NCBI GenBank assembly: GCA_905250025.1
Contig: CAJNOJ010000007.1
Location: forward strand, 372,001 to 436,000
Source of the DNA: Adineta ricciae
Lineage: Eukaryota; Rotifera; Eurotatoria; Adinetida; Adinetidae
Direction of reading: 5' to 3'
DNA length: 64,000 nt
The notes beneath the pieces were generated by a model that did no database searches, was not told where the DNA came from, and was given only the letters and a program-made list of their open reading frames with translations. The position numbers were made by a program, and so were the translations under genes. This document shows, piece after piece, positions 54,205 to 61,730 of this stretch (position 1 is its first letter; every line of letters begins with the position of its first letter).

Positions 54205-54284
54205 TGCGAAATGTTTTCCCGAAGAAGAACACACGGATAGAAGACACTTGTTTGAAAAAGTCAAGTCTAGGCACTGTTCTTTAT

Positions 54285-57200
54285 CAAAATCGATTCGATT
54301 TCATAGCATCAATTGGTTTGCGATTATCATAAATGGATGGCGCTGAAAAGAGAACAGAAAGGTGTGAGAATTTTGATGATTGTTAATGTTTTACCTTGCA
54401 AGATGATGCCACATGTACCAGCAACACAAGCTGTGGTAAAAATGTAAAGAAAAAGACGATCGATTACCAGCGCCACATATTTCCATTCTTCTTTAACCTG
54501 AAAGAAGACGAGAGGAGATTTTCAAAATAAATTTGCAGAATATTGTTTTCGTAAACTACCTTTTTCTCTTCATCTTCTTGTCTCATGTGTGTTGCAATAC
54601 ATTTCAAACCATCAAACGCCTTTTTGATCTCATGCGGATAGAGCGATGGTTCGTCAGGCTGATGACGCCGTTCGAAATCACTATCGCTTATCTCAAGTCC
54701 ATCTGAATCAACGTCGTAATCATCTAATAAGCGTGTTTTCGGTTTACGTAATTGATATGGGCCTGAGTGAAGTAAGGGTACGACGAAGTTCGATGTTGCC
54801 GTTGTCAATGACGTTGTCACCGCTCGATGCGATGATTTCGTACGTGTTTGATGCATCGATGGAAGTTGATACTGCAATGGATCGATCGTTTTCGGGCGCC
54901 GCATCCATAGTAGTTTAGGTAGAACATGCAGGAAAACGCGTCGAACCCATGGCGGCATCTGATGGGTCAACGGTGAACGAAAATGAATATTGAGGACAAC
55001 AACAGTAACAACAATGGATAATGTCACAAGTATCATTGTAAATAGAAGATATTTTCCAACTAATGGTACAACGAGTGAGGTTGGCGGAATGAGTTCAGCT
55101 AATAGTAGGAAAAAGACAGTCAATGACAGTAATATCGAGATACAAAGTGCCACTTTTTCACCCGAATCGGATGGTAAATAAAAAGTTAAAACAGTTAAAA
55201 ATGATATACCAACACATGGTATGATTAAATTAACAGTATAGAAAAGCGTCTTTCGACGTATTATGATCAGAAATGTGATATCAGGATAGGTCTGAGGACA
55301 GCATGTATATTTACGAATATTTCGATTTGCTGGAACACCAATAATATCCCATTCAACGGAACGATAAAAGTCAGTTAAATCAATCGCATATGGTACACCT
55401 AGAATATTTGTATTTGAAAAGAGAAGTATTTATTGAATTTAATATTTCAATTTACTGTTGTTGCCATAGACGGGCATGGAACCGTTTGTTTGATTGATAT
55501 GAACAAGATCCACTTGTTCACCCGAATATGTCCATGAACCAAACTTCATTTGACAATGTTGAATATCTGAACGTAAAACAAACAGATTCAATTTCTATAT
55601 CGATAAGATAACATTCCCAGCGGATGTTACGTAGAAAATGATAGGTGAAGAAAACTAACCGAAGGGAAAAAACTCCACGTCGATCGTACAACTTGATTTG
55701 TAGATTGCTGGTGGCTAAAATAAACAATCAGAAGACATACACTCGTTTTCTCTCATTCTATCTCTTCAATCGTACCTCCCAAATCACTCGTCCGTCGTAA
55801 TAAACAGTAGCCTTTGTCATCAATGTTACTTCGTAGTTACCATCGGCACTAGAAAAATTTCAAGAGAGTGATTTTCTTCTTCTACGTGAATAGTTTTCTA
55901 TTTTGTCTGATCACAAGCGAGAAAATAATGCTTTCATAACGTGCATTCAGAAAAGAAAAATATGTGTATATGCATGTGCAGTGAATCCCATGCAATGCTA
56001 AGAGAAAAAGAAAAAGTATCACCAACTTATTAAAAAGCACCATATCCGGCCGCCAGAGATCATTAGCCGGAATGGAAATATTGGTTAGATTATAAAAATC
56101 CAGTGGATTCCATTTCAAATGTTCATCAACCCATTGCTAAAATTCATTAGGCGTTAGGTAACTTAACGCATTTTAATGCCGGTTTCGTTTCTAACATGTA
56201 TATTGATAGTACATATATCATTATCATTATCTATTTTGTAAGTATAGTAACAGAAACTGTCTATTGACGTCAAGTCTGTTGACGGATGTCTGTGTGTTTT
56301 CAACGCTCGCACATCATTGGGATAATATATTCCTGTCAACAATGTTTATTCATAGCTATCCGAAGCGTTGATAGAGAAAGAGCAACAAACTCTCATCGGG
56401 TGCATTTATGTGTGTATGTGTAAAAAAGAAATTCATCTTTCATCTCGTATGAATACATGTCGAAGGAGAAGGAGAGAGATAAAGCGCGTCTACCTATCCG
56501 TGCATAAAAATCAAGGAAATGACAAGGCACGGAATAAAAATAACAATCTAATATGTTTTGTAATATTCTTATGTCAACACCTCATTGCCATCAAGTCAAT
56601 TATATTAATGATGATACCAATGCGAATTTCGATATACGTGTGTATGTGCGCGCGTATGGATAATGTGAGAGAAATCATAGAATGAAAAACAATATGAAAA
56701 TAAATAATAAATAAAAAATAACTTATAAATATGTGTAGTTCTTTTTTCTGATGATATGATCGTGTCTTGACGGGACAGAAAGAATATATAGTGCAACAAT
56801 GTAGTGTAACAACATCCAGTCACAACAGAAAGAAAATTACTTGTTATACAAAACAATGTCAGGAAGCCAGATTTGTTGGCTTGGAATGTAGAGTACGTCG
56901 ACGCCTCCATATTTGGCTGGATCCCATCGAAGTTTATCGTCGTACCACTCCTACTTATGCATGCACTCCTAGGATCATTTTCCGACATTCTCGGCGGATA
57001 TCTTTCGTTTAGCCTTCGGATGACTTAACACTCGCATTCTATTTCTCGCTGAATTTTACCTGTTTTAACCAAACATTGGATGTCATGATTTGATTTTTCT
57101 CGTCCTTGAAGAGAAAGGAAAAACATTGTCTTTCATTCAACTTCCGCGTGCATTCCTTTTCGTACCACATCAAGCAATTGCGTTAATCGAAGGCCCAAAT

Positions 57201-57426
57201 AAACGGTTAGTTTTTCACTATTATTCTTAACTGGACGAATCAGTTTATTATAAGCACGAGCTTTAATCAATTCTTCGTATAAACGTTTCGCTTCGGGATT
57301 GGCAACAGTAACTATTTATATTAATGAGCATAAAAGGAATCAATTGTACTTGGCAAGAAAAAACTTACCACCATTGAAGCACCAATATAGATAGAATATC
57401 AATAATATGATAATACTTGAATCCAT
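54285..57426 (-). CDS. Nicotinic acetylcholine receptor subunit, alpha type, with duplicated exon 4
   Basis: Cation-selective cys-loop channel subunit. Exon 1 (57369-57426) encodes a signal peptide starting [17 protein letters not shown]. Exon 2 (57166-57311) has [20 protein letters not shown]. Exon 3 (57060-57104, 45 bp) is [15 protein letters not shown]. Two alternative exon 4 copies follow (56841-56950, 56027-56136), then exon 5 (55776-55848) [20 protein letters not shown]. Cys-loop [15 protein letters not shown] has the standard 13-residue spacing. Loop C has the vicinal pair in YTCCP (codons 55298-55303), which defines an alpha subunit. M1-M3 include [10 protein letters not shown], and M2 is preceded by GEK (cation filter), with [19 protein letters not shown]. 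The M3-M4 loop includes WMRRP; M4 and the tail end SNRF. It most resembles alpha subunits of heteromeric neuronal receptors. Oddity: tandem exon 4. Confidence 0.95.
56027..56136 (-). other. Alternative exon 4b of the alpha-type nicotinic subunit
   Basis: 110 bp, phase 0 at the start and 2 at the end, flanked by AG (56137-56138) and a GT donor (56025-56026). It encodes [30 protein letters not shown]. It is an alternative to 56841-56950, from which it differs at 23 of 36 full codons. It carries the loop-D Trp and loop-A region, with Phe at the loop-A Tyr position. It lacks the GG motif usual for this region. Confidence 0.85.
56841..56950 (-). other. Alternative exon 4a of the alpha-type nicotinic subunit
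   Basis: 110 bp, the same phases as exon 4b, flanked by AG (56951-56952) and GT (56839-56840). It encodes [36 protein letters not shown], close to the canonical nicotinic sequence. Loop-A Tyr is present. 110 bp is also the usual vertebrate exon 4 length. Confidence 0.9.
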
Positions 57427-59647: not shown

Positions 59648-61730
59648 ATGTCGATGCCGTTTTTATATTGGTTCCTATTGATTCTATTCAATATACTTCT
59701 ACTCGCAATCAAGGACGGTAAAGATCAGAGATTTTCAAAATCGAACAAATTTAACTTCGAACCTTTTCAGTTCGCAGTTCATATCATGAAGAACAGTTGT
59801 TCAAAGAATTGTTTCAAAACTACAATCCGCTTATTCGTCCTGTGCGAAATGTCGAAGAAACCATCACTGTGTCGTTTAGTATAGCTTTATTACAGTTAAT
59901 CAGTGTCGTAGAAAAAGAACAAGTACTTAAGACAAATGTCTGGCTGCAAGTCGTATGTATATCATGAGAGCGATCATGGAAAGAACATGACTTTTTGATT
60001 TAGAAATGGAAAGATTATCAAATGCAATGGAAACGAGAAAAGTACGGTGGAATCCAGTCAATACGTGTTCCACCCAGTCAAGTTTGGACACCTGATGTAT
60101 GTCGACTCGAAAGAAATTAAAGTGACATTCTTAAACTATTCTCTTCATTTCACAGGTCGTTCTATTCAATAATGCTGACGGTAAATATGAAGCATCATTC
60201 AAATCGAATGTTGTTGTCTACCACAATGGTGATATGAATTGGGTACCGCCAGCTATCTATAAATCGAGTTGTTATATCGATGTCAAATTCTTTCCATTTG
60301 GTAAAACAATTGCAGTTGAAGTTAGTTATGAAAAACTTACAAATGTTCTTCGATTTCAGATAAGCAAACATGTGAATTACGTTTTGGCTCATGGACATAC
60401 GATCAACAACAGATGAACTTTACCTACTATACAGACAATGAGAAGAATGTAACAATAAAAGATTACGTCGTCAGTGGATCATGGGATCTCCTTGAAGGTC
60501 CTATGTTTATCCAACAATCATCGCCGTTACCATCGCCAGTCAATGATAGTGATTTGACCGGCTCATCCGTGGCAGTCACAGACGTGCGACTGAAGAAAGC
60601 AGATGGTCGCGATCGAGTCGAGTTCGTCTGTCGACTTGTAATCAAACGTAAAACACTTTTCTATACAGTCAACTTAATCATACCAACGGTAAGTGGACAT
60701 CGGTTCCATTGTTATATGTCAAGTCGATTGCATTTCGATTTCTAGGTGCTTATTTCGTTCCTATCTGTTTTTGTTTTCTACCTACCAACTGACGCAGGCG
60801 AAAAAATGACATTATCCATTTCGATTTTACTCGCTTTAGTTGTGTTTTTATTACTTATATCGAAAATTCTACCCCCAACATCGATTGTTATTCCGCTGAT
60901 AGCTAAATATCTTTTATTTACATTTATAATGAATATAATAACAATCTTTTTTACAGTTGTGATTATTAACTATAACTATCGAACGTCACGTACACATAAA
61001 ATGCCTAACTGGATTAAACGTCTTTGTATTGATATTCTCCCGCCGATTTTACGTATGGAAAGACCGAAAAAGTATGACAAAGAAGATAATATTCATGTGA
61101 CAGAAGCCGATCGTGCTAAACGTACAATGTTAAATTATATGCAAGCATCACGTGCACTGTCAATTGCTTCACCCGCCGCAATCGATAGTACAACTATGAA
61201 TTCTAATGATACCAATCCAACAAATGATTATGATCAACCATTGGAACTAAAGAAACGTCACTCATCGAAAAAGAAGCATCATCATCATCATCATCATCAT
61301 CGACATTCATCGAAACGACATCAACAACCTGTGAATCAATCATCAACCACCGATGATGAGGAAGAACAATTAACAACTGACGAGATCGATTTACTGCTAA
61401 CAAAAGAAGCATACGAAGCTGCTGAAGATTTGAGTTTCATTGCCAATCACATGCGCGCAGCTTGTCACTATGAAGAGGTAACACAATGGAAATATTCCAC
61501 TATTCCTTCTTTGACTTTGTCGGAATGTTCCTTTTTTCCAGATTCGTGATGATTGGAAATATATTGCATCTGTAATCGATCGGCTACAACTATTTATCTT
61601 TTTCGCTGTGACTGCTATAGGTACATTGAAGATTCTATTCAGCGCACCCGAACTTCTGAAAGTGGTCGATCAATGTGCTATTTTGAAGAAATGGGATCCT
61701 ACATTTAATAATGCTACTTGTACGTTTTAG
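59648..61730 (+). CDS. Nicotinic acetylcholine receptor subunit, non-alpha (beta-like)
   Basis: Signal-peptide exon MSMPFLYWFLLILFNILLLA (59648-59717). A merged exon 2+3 (59771-59952) has NYNPLIRPVRNVEETITVSF and LKTNVWLQV. Then KWKDYQMQWKREKYGGIQSI and VWTPD before an intron, VVLFNNADGKYE after it. Cys-loop CYIDVKFFPFDKQTC. Loop C lacks a vicinal Cys pair and carries an S/P/D-rich insertion (about 60508-60600), so the subunit cannot form the principal agonist face. M1 [11 protein letters not shown]; the M2 region GEKMTLSISILLALVVFLLL then ISKILPPTS, with Lys at the outer-ring position as in vertebrate beta2/beta4. The M3-M4 loop has eight consecutive His followed by an acidic stretch. M4 and tail end NNATCTF at 61730. 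Likely partner of the alpha-type subunit transcribed away from it. Confidence 0.94.
61277..61300 (+). repeat. (CAT)8 polyhistidine-coding tract
   Basis: Eight CAT codons in the cytoplasmic M3-M4 loop of the beta-like nicotinic subunit, flanked by KKK and RHSSKRH. It could bind metal or be a neutral microsatellite expansion. Confidence 0.85.

Follow-up and report, generated by a model that had tools for sequence, protein, structure and literature searches.

The closest described counterparts of the exon pair analyzed here are found in insect Cys-loop receptors. In the nicotinic alpha-4 subunit of Drosophila, Apis, Anopheles, Tribolium and Bombyx, one exon of the ligand-binding domain (LBD) exists in two versions, 4 and 4'; the choice between them changes loop E and the region around the Cys-loop (PMC2064938, PMC2045683), and the Drosophila exon 4' form assembles less efficiently (PMC2045683). 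The insect alpha-6 subunit carries tandem homologous exons (3a/3b and 8a/8b/8c) that are exclusive as a rule, exon 3 lying at loop D (PMC1919356, PMC8505678); the first of these papers cites an estimate by which mutual exclusion is likely for 99.4% of exons duplicated in tandem, and PMC2045683 reports that inclusion of both exons 3, or of neither, is also seen in silkworm. Other alternatives in the insect papers compared are located at TM2 to TM3 (alpha-6 exon 8, silkworm alpha-8 exon 7), and the genes for RDL and GluCl have alternative versions of exon 3 near loop D (PMC2064938).

Here we analyze an alpha-type nicotinic acetylcholine receptor subunit gene of the bdelloid rotifer Adineta ricciae, located in a 64,000-nt stretch of contig C7 (the window), which contains two adjacent versions of exon 4, hereafter 4a and 4b. 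We take the segment encoded by exon 4 to begin with loop D, to include the main immunogenic region and loop A, and to end before the Cys-loop. Judging from the sequence, exons 4a and 4b are probably a mutually exclusive pair. Our preferred reading, to which we give a fair degree of confidence, is that each mRNA carries either 4a or 4b, with 4a as the default and 4b used in a subset of cases.

Like the insect alpha-4 exons, 4a and 4b would provide a nicotinic alpha subunit with two versions of one LBD exon. The first-pass annotation of the window had drawn this parallel. It is right that alternative exon 4 forms exist in alpha-4, but these cover the loop E and Cys-loop neighbourhood, whereas the rotifer exons reach from loop D as far as loop A; the matching name is due to numbering only. 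Exon 3 of alpha-6 resembles the rotifer pair as a set of tandem homologous nicotinic exons and touches the loop D edge of its segment; by its position, it would correspond to the exon preceding the equivalent of rotifer exon 4. RDL and GluCl are GABA- and glutamate-gated channels, unlike the product of the rotifer gene, and the likeness lies in the position of the alternative exons near loop D. Vertebrate CHRN genes contain the homologous segment: gap-free alignments were obtained for 4b with solved alpha-1, alpha-2, alpha-4 and beta-3 chains, and 4a aligns to alpha-4. The vertebrate exon 4 is presumably also 110 bp long with the same borders as the rotifer exon, and we know of no second version of it. 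By term count, CHRNA is absent from the main text of a paper on human tandem exons (PMC9741552, main text only). A further candidate parallel (PMC6915785) was discarded since it concerns exon 4 of Dscam. The loop D to loop A segment is not described as alternative in the insect nicotinic papers compared, and in full-text searches, mostly of papers outside subscription, no report of the rotifer pair appeared among the titles and abstracts listed. If 4b is used, the rotifer would tune its receptor by exchanging the part with loop D, loop A and the surface-exposed main immunogenic region, which differs from the segments swapped in the insect nicotinic genes compared.

Gene model and sister gene

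The gene lies on the minus strand (window 57426-54284) and consists of ten exons plus one extra, with coordinates and frames built from the sequence. A sister copy is present on contig C19 (L037). The features are as follows.

57369..57426, minus strand: exon 1, coding part, with a signal-like start; its start codon opens a 532-aa frame
57166..57311, minus strand: exon 2 (gene model; 82% nucleotide identity to C19 over 138 bases)
57060..57104, minus strand: exon 3, 45 bp, 15 residues (gene model; 91% nucleotide identity to C19)
56841..56950, minus strand: exon 4a, 110 bp (34 of 36 residues identical in C19)
56137..56840, minus strand: intron between 4a and 4b, 704 nt (gene model)
56027..56136, minus strand: exon 4b, 110 bp (Phe replaces the loop-A Tyr; contains the sequons NLT and NIS)
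55849..56026, minus strand: intron between 4b and exon 5, 178 nt (weak donor GTTGGT)
55776..55848, minus strand: exon 5 (gene model, C19 comparison)
55660..55714, minus strand: exon 6, first Cys of the Cys-loop (gene model, C19 comparison)
55456..55566, minus strand: exon 7, second Cys of the Cys-loop (gene model, C19 comparison)
54560..55398, minus strand: exon 8, loop C with the vicinal Cys pair, TM1-TM3 and intracellular loop (gene model, Pfam)
54395..54497, minus strand: exon 9, TM4 (gene model)
54284..54342, minus strand: exon 10 with the stop codon (gene model)

The assignment to the alpha-type nicotinic subunits is based on the domains and on two features of the translation, namely a Cys-loop with 13 residues between its cysteines and a vicinal Cys pair in loop C. 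The LBD (Neur_chan_LBD) scores 255.4 bits in the 4a isoform and 247.1 bits in the 4b isoform (cut-off 26), the membrane domain (Neur_chan_memb) 246.3 bits in both (cut-off 28.1), and the closest solved relatives of the encoded protein are neuronal alpha-4 chains.

Exons 4a and 4b lie where they had been annotated at first pass, each 110 bp long, preceded by AG, followed by GT and in the same phases, and their translations indeed share 13 of 36 residues (55 of 110 bases are identical). In the gene models, the 532-aa frame is uninterrupted with 4a alone or with 4b alone. By contrast, joining 4a to 4b leads to a stop at codon 127, seven codons past 4a, skipping both copies gives a frame ending in CRW followed by a stop (codon 87), and joining 4b to 4a, which is not the genomic order, leads to a stop at codon 164. 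The earlier claim that a whole subunit can be obtained from just one copy at a time thus holds, as a consequence of the reading frame. Loss of the frame on double inclusion or double skipping is frequent, though not invariable, among mutually exclusive exons. Equal lengths and phases, AG/GT borders, intact single-exon frames and near-equal LBD scores all support the reading of 4a and 4b as alternative exons.

The sister gene differs from the C7 gene by a dN of 0.036 and a dS of 1.62 (dN/dS 0.022) over 342 codons, in ungapped blocks that comprise exons 2-7 together with 511 bases at the start of exon 8; the count omits the divergent intracellular loop as well as exons 1, 9 and 10, and exon 1 finds no significant match in C19. 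Strong constraint thus acts on the part of the gene that could be aligned. The two copies are presumably ohnologs of the bdelloid genome doubling; according to PMC5916493, ohnologs in the four bdelloids compared have a mean KS of 0.61 to 1.27, and the GC content of A. ricciae is given as 35.6%. The values obtained here, 1.62 for the pair and 36.4% GC for the window, come closest to those of this species.

The adjacent exon pair is not retained in the sister gene, which has 4a and lacks 4b; retention in relatives would lend support to an exclusive pair, but is no requirement for one. Its intron after 4a measures 217 nt, compared to 992 nt, 4b included, for the C7 equivalent, and this 217-nt intron contains no relic of 4b: shuffled introns match as well, in 461 of 1000 cases at the protein level and in 995 of 1000 at the DNA level. 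Exon 4b thereby looks like a copy-specific splicing switch. It is conceivable, though less likely than not, that 4b dates from around the time of the ancient bdelloid doubling or from before it, one copy having kept the switch and the other having lost it and become fixed on 4a. If so, a splicing choice and the outcome of its loss could be compared within one ancient pair of copies. The sister gene also represents a built-in control for a splice choice kept or lost after genome doubling.

Coding constraint on exon 4b and its origin

Exon 4b is more than a chance match. When the whole 130-Mb genome was searched with the Pfam LBD model, it was detected with an E-value of 2.4e-7 (3.6e-11 for 4a). 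We also built an exon-4 profile from 29 other exon-4 rows of the same genome, excluding 4a, 4b and C19. Two partial matches that could not be read as a whole exon (C16, C19c) were excluded from the profile and from the tree described below, nine further exon-4 matches were not included among the rows, and two rows (C117, C25_L035) were lengthened by three residues past the match, the added residues being possibly intronic. With this profile, 4b scores 51.4 bits and 4a 65.2 bits. The 29 relatives, each left out in turn, range from 48.5 to 76.4 bits, but their scores are raised by near-identical sister rows, of which 4b has none; 4b thus falls within their range, yet higher than just one of them.

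Neutral change does not yield such a score. Among 5000 copies of 4a changed neutrally to the base identity of 4b (53/108), none reached 51.4 bits (best, 20.2), and the same was true of 5000 copies each derived from the exon of C207 (best, 37.0) and of C62 (best, 20.4). The differences between 4a and 4b are unevenly distributed over codon positions 1, 2 and 3 (19, 12 and 24, respectively, out of 36 each), with an excess at the third relative to the second position (one-sided Fisher p = 0.0045); an equal skew arose in 106 of 20000 neutral simulations. At least 13 shared residues were retained in 20 of 20000 simulations, and in 3 of 20000 if the absence of a stop was also demanded. Exon 4b has neither a stop nor a frame change across its 36 codons, and of the 11 positions with at least 80% conservation among the 31 exon-4 rows it retains 10, the exception being Y35F. 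Coding constraint has therefore acted on 4b in the past. The profile score, the neutral simulations and the codon-position skew together support the notion that 4b was maintained as protein over most of its separate history, and 4b is best described, on these sequence criteria, as a true alternative form of exon 4 that is present in just one of the two old copies of the gene.

Exon 4b had been called a tandem duplicate at first pass. The two exons are indeed adjacent, homologous and equal in length and phase, but descent of 4b from 4a is not established, as 4b is nearer to other subunits: it is identical to muscle-type alpha-1 (PDB 9avu) at 20 of 36 residues, to C207 at 19, to C169 and to alpha-4 (8ssz) at 18 each, and to 4a at 13, that is, up to 56% versus 36%. 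Exon 4a, for its part, shares 24 of 36 residues with solved alpha-4 and likewise with C62. Since 4b resembles other subunits more than it does 4a and since silent differences between the two are saturated (pS 0.83), 4b is unlikely to be a recent copy of 4a. An exon-4 tree, limited to 36 columns, gives 4b a long branch (1.89 changes per column) and no supported placement. On the same 36 columns, holding 4b with 4a and C19 was not rejected (AU p 0.119), whereas holding it with 4a, C19 and C62/C111 was (AU p 0.017, uncorrected).

It is conceivable, if doubtful, that 4b came from the exon 4 of another subunit gene by ectopic recombination, the donor having since been lost or much changed; such an origin is compatible with our preferred reading. 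The identities to C207 and to muscle-type alpha-1, set against the low identity to 4a and the affinity of 4a for alpha-4, point that way, as do the rejection of the four-gene grouping (at the uncorrected p-value above) and the absence of 4b from C19. On the other hand, the genome contains no close donor (best, 19/36), 36 columns resolve little and do not reject the grouping with 4a and C19, and an ancient copy of 4a that was lost in C19 would explain the same facts. Flanking intron sequence shared convincingly with the loci compared was not found either: the matches at bases 699-757 correspond to exon 4b itself plus at most 6 intron bases, and the remaining ones measure merely 15-33 bp (E 0.04-0.5). 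Leftovers of a duplicated gene were not detected in the introns around 4b, and the upstream region gave one match with E = 2.7. A 114-aa piece containing 4a gave 13 pattern matches and no relative in a prokaryote collection, and no match in a viral collection.

Splice sites and the use of exon 4b

The splice sites of both exons had been described as good at first pass, a view that the scores do not bear out for 4b. With a small weight matrix built from related sites (26 donors, 24 of them distinct), the 4b donor, TAA/GTTGGT, scores 2.4, marginally under all 26 family donors (2.6-9.7), compared to 5.2 for 4a. The 4b acceptor scores 2.3 (3.8 for 4a), with three of 35 family acceptors lower, although some of the AG acceptors compared may be chance occurrences where the paralog has no intron. 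Branch-like motifs (CTAAC, CTAAT) are found within 25 nt of the 4b acceptor. Exon 6, a constitutive exon of this gene, has a donor that is nearly as weak (2.7), so that the 4b donor, though weak, should still be usable. Given this weak donor, 4b may be regulated, minor or decaying. With its stronger donor and its conservation in the sister gene, 4a looks like the default exon and 4b like an exon needing help.

In our preferred reading, 4b would be spliced in a subset of cells or conditions. The weak donor and acceptor, the absence of 4b from C19 and the lack of intron pairing (see below) count against exclusive use, and the long branch could mean relaxed constraint. Apart from the intron pairing, these features would also fit an exon that formerly worked as an alternative, that this lineage now splices seldom if at all and that is already gone from the sister gene, a reading that we consider unlikely. 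It would agree with the profile score, which exceeds that of just one among the 29 relatives. The intact 36 codons and the retention of 10 of 11 conserved positions speak against it, as does the comparably weak donor of exon 6. Moreover, simulated random change of 4b lowers the score quickly, to a median of 46.0 bits at 3% change (about 5 bits lost) and of 23.3 bits at 15% (about 28 bits lost), so that any decay of 4b would have to be recent.

As to how exclusion could work, complementary pairing of introns, which is known for some exclusive exons, found no support: the scores for the intron after exon 3 with that between 4a and 4b, for the latter with the intron after 4b, and for the first with the last were reached or exceeded in 196, 150 and 32 of 200 shuffles, respectively. 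Steric exclusion was set aside, as the 704-nt gap between 4a and 4b is presumably too long. Without excess pairing and with this spacing, the reading frame, together with decay of wrong mRNAs, is the sole exclusion device visible in the sequence. At the least, the frame would enforce exclusion, an mRNA with both exons or neither ending in an early stop and giving no channel.

The same spacing should not block joining of 4a to 4b, and the resulting stop at codon 127 has six exon junctions downstream; 4b might then act as a poison exon whose inclusion beside 4a shifts the frame, the mRNA decaying and the amount of subunit being tuned. We regard this as improbable, as such an exon needs no protein constraint, whereas 4b retains receptor residues and an excess of third-position changes, and its phases suit single use exactly. 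Misassembly, with an exon from elsewhere inserted into the intron, would account for the absence of 4b from the sister gene, but is very improbable for an exon that sits in a 1.08-Mb contig, matches the phases of its host gene exactly and has no other copy in the assembly (next best match, 53%).

A subunit made with 4b, our preferred alternative product, would have an altered outer surface, with Phe replacing the Tyr of loop A and one or two additional N-glycans at most. The loop-A Tyr, present in the 4a isoform, is found in 27 of 31 exon-4 rows; Phe occurs in 4b, in one of these rows (C25, L027) and in solved beta-3. In muscle receptors, alphaY93F hardly alters the binding energy of acetylcholine (PMC11655062), so that a large effect of the 4b Phe on acetylcholine is not to be assumed. 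The two sequons of 4b, NLT at position 16 and NIS at position 19, have no counterpart in 4a. Since solved alpha-4 and alpha-2 chains also have a sequon at position 16, a real glycan at this position of 4b is plausible.

Other receptor loci and spliced-leader genes

The genome contains at least 139 LBD matches (a lower bound, as 150 of 166 candidates were scored), 61 of which span the exon-4 core. No other doubled exon 4 was found among them, 4a/4b being the sole same-strand repeat within 3 kb. A second overlapping pair, on C19 and 2.3 kb apart, was rejected because it repeats the start of the domain and probably represents two genes. The next closest subunit genes, L043 (C62) and L038 (C111), have no intron after exon 4 and read into exon 5 sequence; an exon-4 swap of the 4a/4b kind would therefore be impossible there. 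A divergent exon-4 stretch, L027 (C25:101045-101152), lies in a 245-codon open frame and has the loop-A Phe and DEHL as in 4b.

A second nicotinic receptor gene is found on the plus strand of the window (59788-60520; C7:431788-432520), in divergent orientation; about 2.4 kb separate the first stretch matched in it from the start of the 4a/4b gene. The same divergent arrangement exists in the sister region, with the neighbour at C19 505065-505858, and an additional receptor stretch is located at C19:507511-507726.

The genome was also searched for the bdelloid spliced leader. There were no exact matches; 22 of 23 bases matched at 41 places, 46 places had at most three mismatches, and the reversed control gave none. 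According to PMC1925144, one 23-nt leader is common to bdelloids of two families, while the monogonont Brachionus plicatilis shows none. In the three loci that were read, GTAAA directly follows the leader, as expected of a spliced-leader RNA gene. The genomic copies (on C6, C8, C43, C77, C99 and others; L056-L058) have T as first base where the query has G, and 28 of the 41 one-mismatch copies, counted by eye, are arranged in inverted pairs about 150 bp apart.
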